Source: Alteromonas abrolhosensis
GTDB taxonomy: Bacteria; Pseudomonadota; Gammaproteobacteria; Enterobacterales; Alteromonadaceae
NCBI RefSeq assembly: GCF_001953635.1
Contig: NZ_MEJH01000009.1
Location: 147,674 to 211,673, forward strand
Length of the DNA stretch: 64,000 nucleotides
Reading direction: 5' to 3'
Shown: positions 24,574 through 61,847 of the stretch, in pieces
How positions within the stretch are numbered: position 1 is the first letter of the stretch
Layout: each line of letters begins with the position of its first letter
The notes under the pieces: model-generated
Told to the model about the DNA's origin: nothing
The model's database searches: none
The model's input: the letters and a program-made list of their open reading frames with translations, nothing else
Made by a program: the position numbers and the translations under genes

Positions 24574-24735
24574 AGTAACTCGTCTTTCACTGTCTTGAAA
24601 ATTGTCATTTCGATGTCATCTTTGTACCGTACCCTTAGAAACAGTTAGCCAAATGCTGGCTCACTTTCTCAAAGACAAAAAAGAGCACTCAACGTGAATA
24701 CGTGTCTACGACAGAAAAAAGAGAAAGGAGAATAA

Positions 24736-24891
24736 ATGAAAAAAAATCGTTTTATGAAAAAAGGAATAAAATTGAAAAACAATAACAGACGCAGACTGAT
24801 GCTTAAGCGTTGTCACCAAAAAGTACTTCAGCGCCGTAAGCTATTTGTCACCAGCGATATGTTCACTCAGTTAACCCGTACACCTAGCTAA
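24736..24891 (+). CDS. Small very basic protein, 51 residues, unknown
   Basis: An ATG with a strong ribosome-binding site (GAGAAAGGAG, 5 bases before it) opens a 51-residue frame with about 18 Lys/Arg residues, for example M-K-K-N-R-F-M-K-K-G and N-N-N-R-R-R-L-M-L-K-R. No hydrophobic segment is seen. The composition suggests binding to nucleic acid or the ribosome, but nothing specific can be named. It lies alone between mltF and the convergent tadA. A short hairpin (AGCCA-AATGC-TGGCT, 24647-24661) lies in its upstream region. Confidence 0.6.
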   Translation: MKKNRFMKKGIKLKNNNRRRLMLKRCHQKVLQRRKLFVTSDMFTQLTRTPS

Positions 24892-24992
24892 ATATCTATA
24901 AAGCTTTAGGGGTCACTGATTAAACCTGCAAGCGATAAATCAATTAGGCGAATTACTCTACTAAGCACATCTTCAAGCGGTACCATAAAACA

Positions 24993-49310: not shown

Positions 49311-49490
49311 TTTATTTTCCTCTTGGGGTTAGGCCTCCATATACCCCTTGTATCGATTCAGACCAACCTAAGTTGAACTGAACACCCCGATACGAAGTGT
49401 CGGTATATGTGTGTTTTAATAAAATAAATTTACCCTCTAAAACGGTGCCAAATACACATGGCAAAATGAGCTTTCCGTCAGGGCGCGCGC

Positions 49491-54444: not shown

Positions 54445-54894
54445 TTAAGCCAACAGCTTATCTTTAATGGTGTTAACCCACTCTACAACGTCTTTTTCTG
54501 GCTCTAGAGTTTCAATTGCGTCAACTTCTAACATATCGGCAACTGCGTTACCTTGTAGTTCGGTCAGTAACGCATGAAACTGTTTACCAGCTCCACAGAA
54601 ACTATCGCCATAGCTGCTATCGCCTAGCGCTGCTACCGCGAATGGCTTGCCAGTTAACATAGGCGATTCGTCTTTCAAATCTGAAAACACAAACTCAAGG
54701 TTTGGTGGTACATCGCCCTGTCCTGTTGTAGAGGTGATGATCAAAAGTGCATCAGCATCAGTGAAATCTGCCACCGACGGGTCGCTTTCAAGTGAGCAGT
54801 CCACGCCCTGTTCAGCTAAGTTCTCTTCCACCTGCTCAGCTACGTGTTGCGCGTTGCCGTAAACTGTACCCGCAATAATTTTCAATGTTGCCAT
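54445..54894 (-). CDS. yqcA: Flavodoxin YqcA
   Basis: 149 residues, same as E. coli YqcA. Flavodoxin-like fold binding FMN: phosphate loop G-T-V-Y-G-N-A (usual T/S-x-T-G-x-T variant of this subfamily), I-T-S-T-T-G-Q-G-D-V-P and A-L-G-D-S-S-Y-G-D-S-F-C. Short-chain flavodoxin of unknown electron partners. The yqcA-truC-yqcC order is as in E. coli. Confidence 0.92.
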   Translation of the reverse strand: MATLKIIAGTVYGNAQHVAEQVEENLAEQGVDCSLESDPSVADFTDADALLIITSTTGQGDVPPNLEFVFSDLKDESPMLTGKPFAVAALGDSSYGDSFCGAGKQFHALLTELQGNAVADMLEVDAIETLEPEKDVVEWVNTIKDKLLA

Positions 54895-54960: not shown

Positions 54961-55809
54961 CTAAACGCAAAACGGCGCTAATTTTTCGAGCCATAGTCGC
55001 ATTTCACTGTGCATCTGTGAATTAATTGATAGCCACTTTCCAGTGACAGGATGAGAAAAGCCCATGTGAGTACAACTTAAGGCCAAATTGTTAAAATTAA
55101 AGTGCTGCTTGGCGAATTTGTTTTGTTTGCCATCGCCGTGGGTCGTGTCACCAATAATGGGATGACGAATATGTACCATGTGTCTACGAAGTTGATGTTT
55201 GCGCCCGGTACTAGGTGAAAGCTTCACTAGCGAATATCGTGCACTTTGGTATTTGCCCACAGGCTCAGGCACTTCAAATTTTGCTACTGACTGATACATA
55301 GTTGATGCAGGTTGTGGCGGCTGCTGCGGGCGCTTATGCTTGTCTGCAATTTTGTCGTAGCGGTATTTTAGGGCGTAATCGATATATCCGGTATGGTGCA
55401 CAAAACCGCGAACTATAGCGTGATACGTTTTTATTACCTGCTTGTCCATCATCTGCTGCCCAAGCTTTGCAGCAATTTCTGAGCTAAAGCTAAACACCAG
55501 CACACCTGACGTGGGTCGGTCTAATCGGTGAGCTGGGTATACGTGCTGGCCTATTTGATCTCTAAGTGTCTGCACCGCAAACACAGTTTCGTGTCTATCG
55601 ATCGGGCTTCTATGTACTAATAGGCCTGGCGGCTTCTCAATCGCAATGATGTGTTCATCTTGGTACAACACAGGTAAATGAAGAGCGTTAACACGACCGT
55701 CCTCACCAGCGCTTGCCTTTCCTATTATTTGCTCATCTGAATGCACAGTTAATTGGCCTTTTAAATCGTTCTTCATAGTGCGTTGTATTTGCTCACCCAA
55801 TGTCTCCAT
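54961..55809 (-). CDS. truC: tRNA pseudouridine synthase C
   Basis: 282 residues from the ATG at 55809, which overlaps the yqcC stop by 17 bp; the open frame extends 36 codons further upstream but that part lies wholly within yqcC. RluA-family fold; catalytic Asp in H-R-L-D-R-P-T-S-G; I-A-I-E-K-P-P-G-L-L-V-H-R-S and G-R-K-H-Q-L-R-R-H also present. Makes pseudouridine 65 in some tRNAs. It has an additional N-terminal ~35 residues before the core compared with E. coli TruC (260); Met at 55776 is an alternative start. Confidence 0.9.
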   Translation of the reverse strand: METLGEQIQRTMKNDLKGQLTVHSDEQIIGKASAGEDGRVNALHLPVLYQDEHIIAIEKPPGLLVHRSPIDRHETVFAVQTLRDQIGQHVYPAHRLDRPTSGVLVFSFSSEIAAKLGQQMMDKQVIKTYHAIVRGFVHHTGYIDYALKYRYDKIADKHKRPQQPPQPASTMYQSVAKFEVPEPVGKYQSARYSLVKLSPSTGRKHQLRRHMVHIRHPIIGDTTHGDGKQNKFAKQHFNFNNLALSCTHMGFSHPVTGKWLSINSQMHSEMRLWLEKLAPFCV

Positions 55810-56137
55810 TGGCAATGTTATCAATAATTTGAAGCTGAGACAGGGTGCGCTGATTCGCCGATGATAGGTATATTTGCGCTGCAGGCGTAATTTGCATAGG
55901 GGGAAGAGGTTGTTCATTCGTCAACAAGACGCGCATTTTGGGAATAAAAATAAAAGCCAACCAACTCTCAAACGCTAAACAATCGACCGCAAAAGGAACC
56001 GCACTTTCCATAGCATTTTTTAGGTCTTGTTCCGCAGGCTCTTCATTTGGCCAAATACCATCTTGATACATGTCTGTTTCTAATTGTATCAATGCTTTAC
56101 TTAATGCAATGTGATGAGTGCTATTCGTTTTAATCAC
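55793..56137 (-). CDS. yqcC: YqcC family protein (DUF446)
   Basis: 114 residues from a GTG at 56137 preceded by GGAGAGG; E. coli YqcC has 109. An ATG at 56290 is open but would add 51 residues foreign to the family. Recognisable core: W-P-N-E-E-P, P-F-A-V-D-C-L-A-F-E-S-W-L-A-F-I-F-I-P-R/K-M and L-P-P-M-Q-I-T-P. A small all-helical protein of unknown function. First gene of yqcC-truC(-yqcA). Confidence 0.82.
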   Translation of the reverse strand: MIKTNSTHHIALSKALIQLETDMYQDGIWPNEEPAEQDLKNAMESAVPFAVDCLAFESWLAFIFIPKMRVLLTNEQPLPPMQITPAAQIYLSSANQRTLSQLQIIDNIANGDIG

Positions 56138-56344
56138 ATCCTCTCCGCAATTCAAAAACGCTTTACTTTCGAAGCGCGCAGTATAGCAGGGGCTAAAGGT
56201 CAACATAAGTGTGCGTGTCTTATCGTTGAATTTCTTCTGCTGTGATACCATTACTCGTATTTGTTGGCGGTCACTCATAGAAGTCCCCATAGATAGATTT
56301 GCCCACTGACAAATTTTGATTAAAGCAGTATTTTGGAACGAGTT

Positions 56345-57394
56345 ATGAGCGCTAACAGTATTAATTCTATCAGCGAGTTTTTGTTACATGCAGGCACTGA
56401 ATACCAGGTTTTTGATTTAGGTCGTCGCCTTGAACCCACAGATAGTCAGACTTTTCTAGAAATAGAAAACGGCAGTGCTTACGCGCCTTACCCTCGTCAG
56501 CAGCACGCGTGGTTCGGCATCGTCTTTTGGAATAAAAATGCTTCTACTCAACACTATATTTGGTTTGTGAAACTGCCGCTTGATGAGCAAGGCTTAGTGG
56601 TTGCCGCTGCAAGGAATCATTTTCTAGAGATTATTGTTGATGCACTAGGCCAGTCTGTCGCTGAAGATACTGAAAAAGCACAAACACTGCCTGACAACCC
56701 TTATTCGTTTGTTCCCAATCAATCGCAACTTGCTCAATTTAACGCACTAGTTAAACGCACCCTAAACCAACCTTTAAGTGAAGAGGCGCAAAAAGTTGAG
56801 GCCTACATTCAAGCCCCGCAACTTGTTGATTGGCAGCATATATCCATGCAGAGCGTGGCAGACTTTGTACATAGCCTAAGCCATCACCCCAAACAAGATG
56901 TATTAGCGCAGGCGATTAAAACCAACACTTCACTTTACTCGGACGTTTTCCTTAACACTTTAATGGAAATGAGTGAAAGCGTTTCTCTGCCTGAAAATTT
57001 ATTAGCGGCGTATTTGGCTGAGATAGATAAAAGTACTGACATCAATTTAGCGGCGTTAAGAGGCACGTCAGAGGGTACCTTTAACCCGACCATTAACAAC
57101 AAACTACTCGAACTATTAAAAAGCGAAAAGTCGCAGAGACTTGATATTCTAAGCGTTATTGCAGCTCGTCATTTCGAGCAAATGGAGCCACTACTGCTTA
57201 GTGCCTTTCTAGAACAGGCGGCAAAAATGGACGAAAAAGAGGGTCATCAAGGTGCTTTATTCGCAGGGTTCTTTTCGGATTTAGTGCAAATCCCGAAATT
57301 ACGCAGACAAGTGCTAACCCTATTGCATTCAAACGCGAACTCACAGGTTCTCGGCAACGCATTTCAACAATTGTTTGCACAAGCGAGAAAGTAA
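56345..57394 (+). CDS. DUF3549 family protein
   Basis: 349 residues from an ATG seven bases after GGA (a TTG 12 bp upstream is open too). Opening S-I-N-S-I-S-E-F-L-L-H-A-G-T-E-Y and R-x-L-E-P, with F-W-x-K and I-W-F-V-K-L-P-L-D-E-Q-G-L, match what I recall of the DUF3549 family of marine gammaproteobacteria. The C-terminal half is helical and may be a HEAT-like repeat. No function is known. The next gene starts directly after its stop. Confidence 0.8.
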   Translation: MSANSINSISEFLLHAGTEYQVFDLGRRLEPTDSQTFLEIENGSAYAPYPRQQHAWFGIVFWNKNASTQHYIWFVKLPLDEQGLVVAAARNHFLEIIVDALGQSVAEDTEKAQTLPDNPYSFVPNQSQLAQFNALVKRTLNQPLSEEAQKVEAYIQAPQLVDWQHISMQSVADFVHSLSHHPKQDVLAQAIKTNTSLYSDVFLNTLMEMSESVSLPENLLAAYLAEIDKSTDINLAALRGTSEGTFNPTINNKLLELLKSEKSQRLDILSVIAARHFEQMEPLLLSAFLEQAAKMDEKEGHQGALFAGFFSDLVQIPKLRRQVLTLLHSNANSQVLGNAFQQLFAQARK

Positions 57395-57697
57395 ATGACG
57401 TTACTTGAGTTGGTGGTGTGGTTGGTTATTGGATTTACTGGCTATCAGTTTTGGCGCATTAGAGCCATTTCCGAGCAAACAAATACGTACCTAAGGCAAT
57501 ACTGCGATAAGCACAACTTACAGTTGCTTAGTGTGGCGAGAGCAAAAACACGATTTTCATTCAAATATGGTAAGCCAGACTGGCACAGCTTATTCAATTT
57601 TGAGTTTTCAAGTAATGGCGAAGACCGATATACCGGCGAAGTTGAATTGATAGGTGTAAGGGTTATGCGAACAGAAGTACCGCCCCATAGGGTATGA
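57395..57697 (+). CDS. DUF3301 family membrane-anchored protein
   Basis: 100 residues. One N-terminal membrane helix (L-L-E-L-V-V-W-L-V-I-G-F-T-G-Y), then F-W-R-I-R and a soluble domain with Y-C-D-K-H-N-L-Q-L-L and F-E-F-S-S-N-G-E-D-R-Y-x-G, the pattern of DUF3301. Unknown function. The ATG abuts the DUF3549 stop, so the pair is one operon. Both converge on the CsrB-like RNA. Confidence 0.82.
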   Translation: MTLLELVVWLVIGFTGYQFWRIRAISEQTNTYLRQYCDKHNLQLLSVARAKTRFSFKYGKPDWHSLFNFEFSSNGEDRYTGEVELIGVRVMRTEVPPHRV

Positions 57698-57744: not shown

Positions 57745-57778
57745 CAAAAAAAAGGGGAACCTGTCGGCTCCCCTTTTT
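57745..57778 (-). terminator. Terminator of the CsrB-like RNA
   Basis: On the minus strand AAAAAGGGGAGCC, loop GACA, GGTTCCCCTTTTT forms a long stem (one mismatch) running into more T residues. It also faces the end of the DUF3301 gene and may serve both directions. Confidence 0.88.
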
Positions 57779-58380
57779 CCTGGAATTTTGAGTATCCTTC
57801 TCCGCGATCCTTTGCGACTAAAATCTTCCCGATTAAAATCCGTATACGCCCCTTTCCATCTACTCTCGCGCCTTCCTGTGCGAGCTACACTTCCATGCGT
57901 AGGTCCCTTTCCTTTTTTCCTAAATTACTACACATCCTACATGCAGTGTTCCTCATCCTGAGGCTGTCCTTGTCAGGCTCCGCTGACGATCCCTTCCTTC
58001 GTTCCATTTTTCGCTGCACATCCTGCTACAGCTTTGCTAATCCTTTAGCATGTCCTTCTTTCATCCTTGGTTTGCTCGTCCATGCAAACTAGAAATTCCT
58101 TGATGGCTCTCCTGCCGTTGGCTCCTTGCCTCTAGCTCCTTGCTAGCTTTAGTCCCTTTATCCCTGCAACGTCCTGTACGTGATGTCCTATCACGTCTCT
58201 CGTCCTTGAATTCCTTTATTCCCTATCAAATCCGTTTTCAACATCCGTTTAATGCAGCATCCTATCTGCTTTCCCTTCCCTTTACTCACTGCCTTGTGAG
58301 AGTCTCATCCTTAAGTTGTCCTAACTTATTCCGTTGATGATTCCTTACTCAATCCGTGACTCGTCGTGTTTCCTTGTGAC
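57745..58380 (-). ncRNA. csrB: CsrB/RsmZ-like CsrA-sequestering small RNA (about 636 nt)
   Basis: No credible protein is coded here, but the minus strand holds about 47 GGA triplets by my count, where roughly 10 are expected by chance. Many sit in loops of short perfect hairpins: CGTGAT-AGGAC-ATCACG (58179-58195), CTAGC-AAGGA-GCTAG (58132-58146), AAGTT-AGGAC-AACTT (58313-58327), GCTAA-AGGA-TTAGC (58036-58049), CCTCA-GGA-TGAGG (57951-57963), GTCAG-CGGAGC-CTGAC (57972-57987). Others lie between hairpins, several as AGGATG. This is the architecture of CsrB/CsrC/RsmX/Y/Z RNAs, which titrate CsrA/RsmA. A terminator, a -10 element and a GacA-type box frame it. It lies between yqcC and syd, as I recall for E. 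coli csrB, but is far longer than that ~370-nt RNA. The 5' end is inferred. Alternatively two sponge RNAs in tandem. Confidence 0.88.
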
Positions 58381-58386
58381 ATGTTT

Positions 58387-58392
58387 ATAGTA
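58387..58392 (-). promoter_or_regulatory. -10 element of the CsrB-like RNA promoter
   Basis: TACTAT on the minus strand would give a start near 58380, just before the first hairpin. The -35 region 17 bp upstream (ATGGCG) is poor, as expected for an activator-dependent promoter. Confidence 0.5.
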
Positions 58393-58549
58393 TCCCTTCC
58401 AATTATTACCGCCATATTGAATTACAAGGATTTAAGAAAGTTTTTTGTACGACTTTCGACTACTTTTTAAAATATTCAATAGAATCAAAGACTTTATACT
58501 TTAGTATAATTTTTTCTTTCAGAATTTAGGTAAGATCACTCACAGCGTT

Positions 58550-58567
58550 TGTAGGAAATGTCTTACA
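58550..58567. promoter_or_regulatory. GacA/UvrY-type upstream activating box
   Basis: Read on the minus strand: TGTAAG-ACATTT-CCTACA, which differs from the consensus TGTAAG-N6-CTTACA at one position. Its centre is about 178 bp upstream of the inferred RNA start, similar to the distance known for rsmZ/csrB genes in Pseudomonas and enterics. It implies control by a BarA-UvrY (GacS-GacA) two-component system encoded elsewhere. Confidence 0.75.
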
Positions 58568-58974: not shown

Positions 58975-59472
58975 ATGAGTAATTTACCCATAACTAATCG
59001 TTCCAGTGACAGTAAATCAAACAGCTTCTTGTCTAGCTTCTTTGGACAAAAGGCCCTTGATAACTTCTTTCAAGATTTTTCTAGTCATTTTCCCTTTTCA
59101 AAAGAGTCCTCCGGTCTTATAGACACCAAACTAGATTTCGTTACGCCCAAGGTCGATATTGTTGAGCGTAAAAAAAGCTATGAATTGACTGCGGAATTAC
59201 CGGGGTTAGAGAGTAAGGACATAAAACTATCGCTGTCAGACGACATTCTCACTATAAGCGGGGAGAAGAAGTATGAAAGTGATGAAGATAAAGAAGACAA
59301 CATACACGTGATGGAACGTAGTTACGGCAGTTTTCAGCGTAGTTTCAGGTTACCTGTGAGCGTAGAGCAGGATGCTATTAACGCAAATTTTAAGAAAGGA
59401 GTACTCAAGATACTTCTTCCTAAATCGGCTAAAGCACAGGAATTACAGCGTAAGATTGAGATAACAGACTAG
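58975..59472 (+). CDS. Small heat-shock protein, Hsp20 family
   Basis: 165 residues. A Ser/Phe-rich N-terminal arm (1-50; S-F-L-S-S-F-F-G) precedes an alpha-crystallin domain (about 54-150) with P-K-V-D-I-V-E-R, L-T-A-E-L-P-G-L, I-S-G-E-K-K, E-R-S-Y-G-S-F-Q-R-S-F-R-L-P and A-N-F-K-K-G-V-L-K-I-L-L-P-K. An ATP-independent holdase. This is the HspA/Hsp16.5-type group rather than IbpA/B. Start follows TAGGAG at good spacing. The next gene, glgC, starts 40 bp later and may be co-transcribed. Confidence 0.93.
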   Translation: MSNLPITNRSSDSKSNSFLSSFFGQKALDNFFQDFSSHFPFSKESSGLIDTKLDFVTPKVDIVERKKSYELTAELPGLESKDIKLSLSDDILTISGEKKYESDEDKEDNIHVMERSYGSFQRSFRLPVSVEQDAINANFKKGVLKILLPKSAKAQELQRKIEITD

Positions 59473-59512
59473 ATACAAATAGCGCCAGGGACGGCTGAAT
59501 TCGGAGCCTGAT

Positions 59513-60886
59513 ATGAATGCTGAAACAGATATTTACCAGATAATGAAAGATACCTTAGTTTTAGTCTTGGCCGGTGGCCAGGGCTCAAGGTTGAAAGAAT
59601 TAACCAAAATGCGCGCTAAGCCTGTATTAGAGTTTGGGAGCCATTGTCGTATTATAGATTTTCCACTGTCGAACTGTGTTAATTCAGGCCTAAAGCAAAT
59701 TGCCGTGCTGACTCAGTATAAGTCACAGTGTTTAATTCGCCATTTGATGCAGCATTGGAGCCCGTTGAACAACAGCTTTGGCGGTCGATTGGATATTTTA
59801 GCGGCATCACAACAACGGTCTGAAAGCTGGTATCAGGGAACGGCAGACGCGTGCTATCAGAACATGGGTTATATTAAGTCGGTGGCTCCGAAATACGTTT
59901 TGATTCTTTCAGGAGATCATGTCTATAACATGGACTACCGTAAACTATTAACTACCCATGTGAAGAGTAATGCTGAAATGACAGTGTCATGCATCGAGGT
60001 GCCTACTGAGTTAGCCGCGAATCAGTTGGGGGTGTTAAAGGTTGATTGCAATAGTCACATTACCGCCTTTGATGAGAAGCCCCGCGTTCCCCATGCACTG
60101 GTCGATGCTCCTGACTATTGTTTGGCTTCCATGGGTAATTATGTAGTTAACGCTGATGTATTGTTCAAATTACTCACCGAAGATGCTGGCTCGCTTAACT
60201 CTGAGCATGATTTTGGCAAAGACGTGATCCCTTCAATTATTGCTCAGCATCGAGTTTTCGCTCATCGCTTTCGTAGCCCCAATGGTGCGCAAATTCCCTA
60301 TTGGCGAGATGTGGGCACCTTGGACAGCTATTGGCAAGCTCACATGGACTTGCTGAATAACTCGAGTTTATTAAACCTATCCGATCCCACGTGGCCTATT
60401 TGGGGAAGCTCTTTTTCACGGGCGCCCACCGAAATTACTAATGGTAGCCACTCGGCCTGCTGTGAACTTAAACAAGTATTGGTGGGTTCAGGCTGTAAGT
60501 TAAACAGTTGCTCTGTGAGTCAGTCAGTTTTGTCATCAAATGTTAGTATTGGCACAGGGTCAATAATTGATAAAAGCGTGTTGCTACCCGAGGTAAATGT
60601 AGGCAGTGAAGCCAGGTTAGCTAATGTGATTGTCGATAAAGGGGTAAACATCCCGCCTAACTTCGTAATTGCTGATACCGCTATAGCAAAACAACAAGGC
60701 TTCACAGTTACCCGAGAAGGTGTCATTTTAGTCACTCAAAAAGTTATCGATCGAATCAACGGCTCGTTAGCGGATATCGATAATATACAAAGATTTATGA
60801 AATCGAGTTATACCGGCCCTTTACCGGCGAGAATTGTGACTCCGAAAAGTCATGAGTACCGCGATTACGTACTGTCCGAAAGGTAA
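59513..60886 (+). CDS. glgC: Glucose-1-phosphate adenylyltransferase
   Basis: 457 residues. Makes ADP-glucose for glycogen. N-terminal nucleotidyltransferase domain with V-L-A-G-G-Q-G-S-R-L-K-E-L-T and R-A-K-P-V-L-E-F-G, then Y-Q-G-T-A-D-A-C-Y-Q-N, S-G-D-H-V-Y-N-M-D-Y, and Y-W-R-D-V-G-T-L-D-S-Y-W; a C-terminal left-handed beta helix (about 310-420) as in allosteric GlgC. No glgA, glgB or glgP is adjacent. The 40-nt leader after hsp20 has two GGA triplets (59489-59491 and 59503-59505), the second inside the ribosome-binding site CGGAG; GlgC translation is a classical CsrA target in E. coli. Confidence 0.95.
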   Translation: MNAETDIYQIMKDTLVLVLAGGQGSRLKELTKMRAKPVLEFGSHCRIIDFPLSNCVNSGLKQIAVLTQYKSQCLIRHLMQHWSPLNNSFGGRLDILAASQQRSESWYQGTADACYQNMGYIKSVAPKYVLILSGDHVYNMDYRKLLTTHVKSNAEMTVSCIEVPTELAANQLGVLKVDCNSHITAFDEKPRVPHALVDAPDYCLASMGNYVVNADVLFKLLTEDAGSLNSEHDFGKDVIPSIIAQHRVFAHRFRSPNGAQIPYWRDVGTLDSYWQAHMDLLNNSSLLNLSDPTWPIWGSSFSRAPTEITNGSHSACCELKQVLVGSGCKLNSCSVSQSVLSSNVSIGTGSIIDKSVLLPEVNVGSEARLANVIVDKGVNIPPNFVIADTAIAKQQGFTVTREGVILVTQKVIDRINGSLADIDNIQRFMKSSYTGPLPARIVTPKSHEYRDYVLSER

Positions 60887-60972: not shown

Positions 60973-61626
60973 CTAGTTTTGTTTTTTCCTAAACATTATA
61001 TCGCCGTCTATATGTGACAAATGAAGTTGACTAACGATTTGATAATTGTCGTCGTTAAAGAAGTGACGATGGGAAGGCACGGTGACAAAAACCGCGATGC
61101 CTTCGCTTTTGGCGTCCTCTTCTACAACGCTGTCAATTGCACCTAATAAAATATGTCCAAGACCATGGTGCTGATAATCAGGATGTACTGCGATAAAGCT
61201 CAACATATGGAAATTGTCGGCGGGTACTAAGGCGCGTACTTTTTCTTCTTTTTCTAACATTTGCTTAGTACCAAATAATCCGGCCGTCAAAAGCATTCGC
61301 AATCTCCAATGCCAATAACGCCCTGAACCAAATGCCGCATCGGGTGCGGTTAAACACGCCACAGCGATAAGCCTGTCGTCATCAAACAGACCTATCATGG
61401 GTTGTTCTGCAACCCAGAATGCGTTGAGTTCTTCGCGAATAGCGGAACGAAGGCGGCTTTCATAGCCTTCTTTCTCTGCTTGAAAAATGTCGATGAAAAG
61501 GGGGTCGTCTACGTATGCATTGTAAAGAATAGAGGCAGCAACTTTCAGGTCATCTACAGATAAGTAGATGGCTTTAACCGTGTCTTGCAAGGGGGCTATT
61601 GCGTTATTAATCGCATCGGTATTCAT
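60973..61626 (-). CDS. GNAT family N-acetyltransferase
   Basis: 217 residues from the ATG at 61626, preceded by AAGGAG at good spacing; the open frame runs 34 codons further but lacks such a site. GNAT fold: acceptor-side motif M-I-G-L-F-D-D-D-R-L-I-A-V-A near 90, then acetyl-CoA site L-S-F-I-A-V-H-P-D-Y-Q-H-H-G-L-G-H-I-L-L (about 150-170), and a C-terminal V-F-V-T-V-P-S-H-R-H-F-F-N-D-D-N-Y. Substrate unknown; resembles small-molecule acetyltransferases of the type annotated near stress genes. Confidence 0.85.
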   Translation of the reverse strand: MNTDAINNAIAPLQDTVKAIYLSVDDLKVAASILYNAYVDDPLFIDIFQAEKEGYESRLRSAIREELNAFWVAEQPMIGLFDDDRLIAVACLTAPDAAFGSGRYWHWRLRMLLTAGLFGTKQMLEKEEKVRALVPADNFHMLSFIAVHPDYQHHGLGHILLGAIDSVVEEDAKSEGIAVFVTVPSHRHFFNDDNYQIVSQLHLSHIDGDIMFRKKQN

Positions 61627-61847
61627 CAGGGGCTCCTTGTACGCAAAGTTGTTAGTTGCAAATACCCATTCAAATAAGATGGGCAAGGTGGATGAAAATG
61701 CGGCCGCATTTAACATTGCGCCAACCACCTAACAAGCTGTTCAAACTTTAGCCTACTCGAAAACCCCTCACATGTTAACTTTTTATTAACATTTAAAAGT
61801 GAAGATTAATTCAGCTTTTATATTTAATCACTAAAATTGAAGCGTGT

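Follow-up and report, generated by a model that had tools for sequence, protein, structure and literature searches.

Does the 636-nt stretch at 57745-58380 of the window (the whole 64,000-nt segment of the Alteromonas abrolhosensis genome that was analysed) encode a regulatory RNA on its minus strand and, if so, of which kind and size? The original prediction proposed a very large RNA of the CsrB type. Our analysis indicates that the RNA at 57746..58380 is very likely the Alteromonas csrB, a noncoding RNA that would be placed under BarA/UvrY-type control and would sequester many CsrA dimers. This assignment draws on an excess of GGA motifs, conservation above the neutral expectation, covarying hairpins, a terminator, an upstream promoter box, synteny, and the presence of csrA and uvrY in the genome (Table 1).

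Table 1. Features of the csrB locus and its neighbourhood, in window coordinates
Feature	Position	Strand	Remarks
csrB-type RNA	57746..58380	minus	635 nt, 48 GGA (32 ANGGA, 28 AGGA); homologue in 54/54 genus genomes examined
3' core with covarying GGA hairpins	57746..58015	minus	e.g. 57963-57951, 57947-57927, 57902-57885, 57884-57865
Middle section, variable in length and sequence among species	58033..58275 (approximate limits)	minus	from pairwise blocks
Intrinsic terminator, hairpin and T-run	57745..57782	minus	both-side changes at several pairs, 29 sequences
Putative -10 element TACTAT	58387..58392	minus	
UvrY/GacA-type inverted repeat TGTAAGACATTTCCTACA	58550..58567	minus	187 nt upstream of the RNA start
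Second, weaker box-like sequence TGTGAGTGATCTTACC	58529..58544	minus	in some relatives only
DUF3301 gene	57395..57697	plus	adjoins the RNA 3' end
DUF3549 gene	56333..57394	plus	
yqcC (DUF446)	55793..56290	minus	csrB neighbour in E. coli
truC-like RNA pseudouridine synthase	54961..55917	minus	
yqcA-like flavodoxin	54445..54894	minus	

Motif content and predicted fold

The minus strand of 57745-58380 carries 48 GGA motifs, one more than the approximate number predicted, with a mean spacing of 13 nt, just as had been anticipated, versus two (as TCC) on the plus strand. In 2000 dinucleotide shuffles of the same stretch the mean was 25.1 GGA (sd 3.3) and the maximum 36, which places the observed count about 7 sd above chance. 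When every 636-base stretch not overlapping the RNA was counted over the whole window, on both strands and at every start, at most 15 GGA were found; the same scan at every tenth start gave 14 as the top count. In the predicted ensemble, 38 of the 48 motifs are mostly unpaired. The prediction that motifs would be presented in the loops of 5-6-bp hairpins is borne out for 11 of the 48 with uninterrupted stems of at least 5 bp (G-U pairs allowed) and for 9 with stems of at least 6 bp. In controls in which the GGA were held fixed and the other bases shuffled 300 times, the former count averaged 4.6 with a maximum of 11, so that it was equalled at least once by chance, and the latter averaged 1.7 with a maximum of 7 and was never equalled.

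In the mechanism that we propose, transcription would run from about G58380 to the terminator at 57745 under BarA/UvrY-type control, and the RNA would fold into a series of small hairpins and linkers presenting the GGA motifs. The folded RNA would then probably sequester many CsrA dimers and relieve the effect of CsrA on its target mRNAs. The middle of the gene may have grown in this lineage by the addition of GGA units, which would account for the presence of 48 motifs in one RNA.

Genomic neighbourhood

In the window, yqcA, truC and yqcC on the minus strand are followed by DUF3549 and DUF3301 on the plus strand and then by the RNA on the minus strand; in E. coli MG1655, yqcA, truC, yqcC and csrB are all on one strand. 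Because these gene orders correspond, the RNA stands at the position of E. coli csrB and has the same orientation relative to yqcC, so that neighbourhood and orientation both agree with orthology, although in the window yqcC and the RNA are separated by DUF3549 and DUF3301, which is not so for E. coli csrB. Among named records, the neighbouring DUF3549 protein is closest to those of A. marina (96%) and A. portus (93%).

On the promoter side, genes for an HSP20 protein and a GlgC-like nucleotidyl transferase (58975-60886) separate the RNA promoter from a GNAT gene (60973-61728). In G330, which we take to be A. macleodii ATCC 27126, and in the five nearest named records that were tested (A. marina, A. 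portus, ALT199, A. gracilis and KUL106), the GNAT gene is about 0.3 kb or less from the RNA start, and the HSP20 and GlgC-like pair therefore looks like an insertion in the window genome; the distance in the loci L113 and L120 is about 1 kb. In E. coli, glgC is a classic CsrA target. A t44 RNA (RF00127, 75.3 bits), a leader of rpsB, is present at 49328-49431 on the minus strand of the window.

Transcript ends and promoter

The transcript would span 58380 to 57746, or 635 nt. In line with the strong intrinsic terminator that had been predicted, the minus strand has a single terminator-like site (57782-57745), although the scan alone is weak, as shuffled versions of that 1.8-kb region give an expectation of 1.5 such sites. 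The terminator hairpin covaries at several pairs among relatives, with some pairs broken in up to 7 of 29 sequences. We infer that transcription starts at G58380, the first base of the conserved 5' end GTCACARGGA. This end recurs across the genus as GTCACARGGA...CACGAYGAGTCA, and so does a TAnTAT-like element about 6-7 bases before it.

The box TGTAAGACATTTCCTACA matches the E. coli csrB box in 14 of 18 letters, and begins at -187 compared to -191 from the annotated csrB start in E. coli. Of 41 genus RNAs, 40, that of the window included, have a UvrY/GacA-type box with 13-16 of 18 letters matching E. coli at -175 to -189; the box is missing only in L136, where the upstream sequence is too short; 1.3% of shuffled promoters reach 13 matching letters. 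Moreover, the genome has one copy of csrA (88.8 bits) and one intact UvrY of 214 aa over the NCBIfam cut-off (299.7 bits), and the co-occurrence of box and UvrY, as a match at the level of sequence, is consistent with control of the RNA by UvrY. As a separate observation, two matches to csrA exceed the Pfam cut-off in the relative G025 (G025:C1:1699221-1699376 and 2722813-2722968), and the other nine genomes of the same csrA comparison have one match each.

Relation to published Alteromonas RNAs

The available part of a 2018 paper on A. macleodii Te101 describes three sRNAs, Aln1a-c, which are A(N)GGA-rich, are called CsrB-C analogues and make up most of the primary reads, with three start sites mapped in a 404-nt gap (PMC5864184). 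AltRNa1 of AltDE1, reported in 2014 with a length of 424 nt and an RPKM of 143,798, is given no class in the available part of that paper (PMC4223743), and the accessible Te101 text states that the earlier AltDE1 study saw high expression of the Aln1 region (PMC5864184). By locus tags, the distance to csrA in Te101 is 127 genes, and the Te101 paper gives an identity of 77% on average between its two species (PMC5864184). In G330, the csrB locus lies 130-135 called genes away from csrA, and no other gap of at least 280 nt in 180 kb is GGA-rich. Between G330 and G013, identity at aligned positions is 77.2% (72.4% with gaps) over the initial 404 nt of the RNA, 74.3% over the first 300 nt and 82.2% over the whole RNA.

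Nevertheless, the 404-nt gap of Aln1a-c and the 424 nt of AltRNa1, as stated in the available parts of these papers, differ from the gap of about 1.0-1.3 kb in G330 and the window. The AltDE1 coordinates neither prove nor exclude that AltRNa1 comes from the csrB locus because, relative to G013, the TPP/RNase P anchors shift by +4696, +30121 and +16884, which disagrees with the -4045 that the csrB locus would need. A 400-nt gap in G330, which we take to be map-rpsB, was considered as a rival place for Aln1; its length agrees with the 404 nt, as does its distance of 123 called genes from csrA with the gene count, but it holds only 4 GGA and is rated less likely. The window gap at 24574-24992, flanked by genes that we take to be mltF and tadA, has few GGA, and the flagellin landmark gave no match in G330 to the motif used. 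In our judgement, Aln1a-c and AltRNa1 quite likely represent the present locus, and the description of the RNA as previously unlabelled is therefore doubtful and probably wrong. In the open-licence literature searched, no paper ties this RNA to the enteric csrB locus. We count the very high published expression at this probably identical locus in favour of csrB.

The three RNAs reported from a 404-nt region weigh, as far as the accessible text of that paper goes, against csrB as a single transcript, and would be expected if the locus yielded several shorter CsrA-binding sRNAs from internal starts, with the same function and a smaller unit; the mapped length of AltRNa1 fits this as well. The minus strand, however, has one terminator-like site and one upstream box whose distance hardly varies, and conservation falls in blocks at the extreme 5' end and in the 3' core, as one transcript predicts. 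In addition, the identity of the published RNAs with this locus is itself only probable. We therefore regard production of several sRNAs as possible but rather unlikely, and prefer a csrB that would be made as a single full-length transcript.

Conservation and covariation

Eleven close relatives, which are 82-93% identical to the window RNA, keep 38-45 of its 48 GGA exactly, and each has 44-49 GGA, whereas random change at equal divergence leaves 31-41 on average, although in four of the 11 comparisons the top count among 300 simulations was as high as the real one or higher. Among these relatives, invariant letters make up 76% within GGA, 57% outside and 66% for G outside. Random drift of the motifs in related Alteromonas, named by the original prediction as grounds for abandoning it, is thus not what the 11 relatives display. 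Five GGA-loop hairpins in the 3' core, compared over 29 sequences, are paired in 99.2% of cells, and 16 of their 22 pairs have changed on both sides, with the structure having been derived from the same alignment, which favours the pairing score somewhat; none of 500 shuffles scored as high, and slid controls fall to 30-50%.

These changes preserve hairpins, which argues against the plus strand encoding a protein with the GGA as a by-product of TCC codons. A 114-aa antisense open stretch, present in four of the 12 RNAs compared (that of the window included), is in favour of such a protein, but the longest antisense open stretch varies across the 12 in both position and size (46-172 aa for the longest or near-longest) and the lengths of 603-635 differ by non-multiples of three. 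A conserved antisense frame was looked for among these 12 RNAs and was not seen, and we consider a protein highly improbable. Functionless purine-rich low-complexity drift, to which the 67% A+G of the minus strand would lend itself, has even less to commend it, is contradicted by the relatives, and is close to negligible in view of the GGA excess over dinucleotide shuffles, the conservation of GGA letters above other positions, the covarying hairpins and the conserved promoter box.

The Rfam model and genomes outside the genus

The suggested Rfam search of the minus strand does find a match to the CsrB model RF00018, at 26.9 bits (E 2.3e-5 over 1001 bases), which is below the gathering threshold of 71 bits and to that extent counts against csrB. 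Whole-genome searches with RF00018 do not report the window RNA, and none of the 59 genus genomes has a match over the cut-off, in keeping with the earlier warning that models built on enteric or Vibrio sequences may miss it. Eighteen loci were scanned with the model: E. coli scores 380 bits, four of the five family f21 RNAs (L034, L040, L045 and L049) are over threshold at 74.9-95 bits, and the best match at nine further loci is 36-67 bits. The other four (L091, L075, L063 and L005), each of which has a GGA cluster, were without an RF00018 match down to an E value of 0.01, which is a second point against csrB. Of the f21 RNAs over threshold, L034 is 42 nt from DUF3301, and the other three are 540-610 nt away with one gene between. 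Because these RNAs at, or one gene from, the locus pass the RF00018 threshold, they serve as intermediates, in or beside the same place, that connect the window RNA to Rfam CsrB. The proposed CsrB type is upheld by synteny, the upstream box, the covarying GGA hairpins and the sub-threshold match. In family f6, L060 (G272) has two tandem RF00018 matches near DUF3301 (80-462 and 929-1345; 67.4 and 41.6 bits, both sub-threshold), suggesting a duplicated csrB.

The DUF3301 neighbourhood was inspected in 58 genomes outside the genus, chosen from 185 with DUF3301, seven of which belong to the genus. A GGA cluster is present in 25 of the 58, namely 13 of 17 in f21, five of seven in f6, both in f16, and five of 11 in other genera of the same family; the 33 genomes with none, which include all 21 remaining ones, count against csrB. 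An exact 45-mer search of genome contigs and a plasmid search gave no match, and a 27-nt DNA match at G000:C4:114943 was set aside, there being no GGA cluster around it.

Length variation in the genus

All 54 of the 59 genus genomes that were examined (G025, G030, G328, G329 and G343 are not among them) have a homologous RNA: 41 genomes with a complete RNA, 12 more, and G022, in which it is split by contig ends; the first set comprised 42 loci. The 41 complete RNAs range from 332 to 835 nt and from 20 to 53 GGA, and length and GGA number are strongly correlated (r = 0.96). Comparison of nine RNAs with that of the window gives a conserved 5' end of 24-105 nt, a conserved 3' core of 138-285 nt and a variable middle, and the 835-nt form contains an internal 102-nt repeat at 70%. 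In a tree of DUF3301 and DUF3549, a well-supported group of 27 contains all RNAs of 554-654 nt plus one of 495, and the 440-nt forms branch off outside it; this position suggests growth of the RNA, in a tree that has long deep branches, several open forks and a midpoint root, and from which four RNAs of 332-342 nt are absent, their loci being without DUF3301.

A short csrB copy is present in 11 genomes, nine of which carry one or two further Csr-type RNAs with their own box; in G339 and G345, which also have the short copy, one Csr-type RNA was found. In G002, locus L153 (G002:C14:762300-765300) has two tandem Csr-type RNAs besides csrB (1115-1367 and 1774-2026), with 19 GGA and a box each, which are identical at 240 of 253 bases. 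The nine genomes with two or three RNAs have 39-62 GGA in total (median 46; counted on GGA-rich segments or full RNAs), and those in which one RNA was found, in a search that used strict filters, have 23 to 53. It is conceivable, though doubtful, that CsrA-sponge capacity is selected as a genome-wide dose, reached via one growing RNA or two to three short ones. The hypothesis of a constant dose across the genus gains from the window RNA and its 11 close relatives, with 44-49 GGA in one RNA, and loses from the wide spread of the one-RNA genomes. An ANGGA-triple pattern finds no other dense cluster in the genome of the window, where a second Csr RNA is unlikely, although this pattern is not sensitive and missed the 24-GGA csrB of G002.

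Comparison with known systems

The RNA is a csrB orthologue of unusual size whose function class is already known, and its long architecture and the evolutionary series are, as far as seen in the literature covered, new. The Csr RNA of Alteromonas would thus be not an analogue of enteric csrB but its direct orthologue, and a top-expressed RNA of the genus if the Aln1/AltRNa1 identification holds. Within one genus, the length and the number of binding sites of a protein-sponge RNA can differ 2.5-fold, and this natural series (20 to 53 GGA per RNA, and one to three RNAs found per genome) could be used to relate sponge size to CsrA activity.

E. coli CsrB (RF00018) resembles the window RNA in lying beside yqcC-truC-yqcA, in orientation, in a box at about -190, in GGA hairpins and in its terminator. 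The unusual size that had been proposed is confirmed by the difference between 369 nt with 22 GGA in E. coli and 635 nt with 48 GGA here; the length of about 370 nt originally quoted for E. coli CsrB stands, and its 18 repeats do not agree with the 22 GGA of MG1655. To judge from GGA number, the window RNA might hold roughly twice as much CsrA as E. coli CsrB. E. coli additionally has CsrC with 14 GGA, according to the available part of the source (PMC11882849). Pseudoalteromonas fuliginea, in the accessible parts of two papers, likewise has GGA-rich RNAs with a promoter box, but three of them, Pf1, Pf2 and Pf3, with 25, 21 and 9 GGA (the earlier paper gives about 21 for Pf1); Pf2 and Pf3 bind CsrA in gel shifts, and Pf1 and Pf2 are described there as confined to Pseudoalteromonas (PMC11882849, PMC9927453). 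It may be that Pf1 and other RNAs regarded as restricted to one genus descend from csrB and are hidden by fast sequence change.
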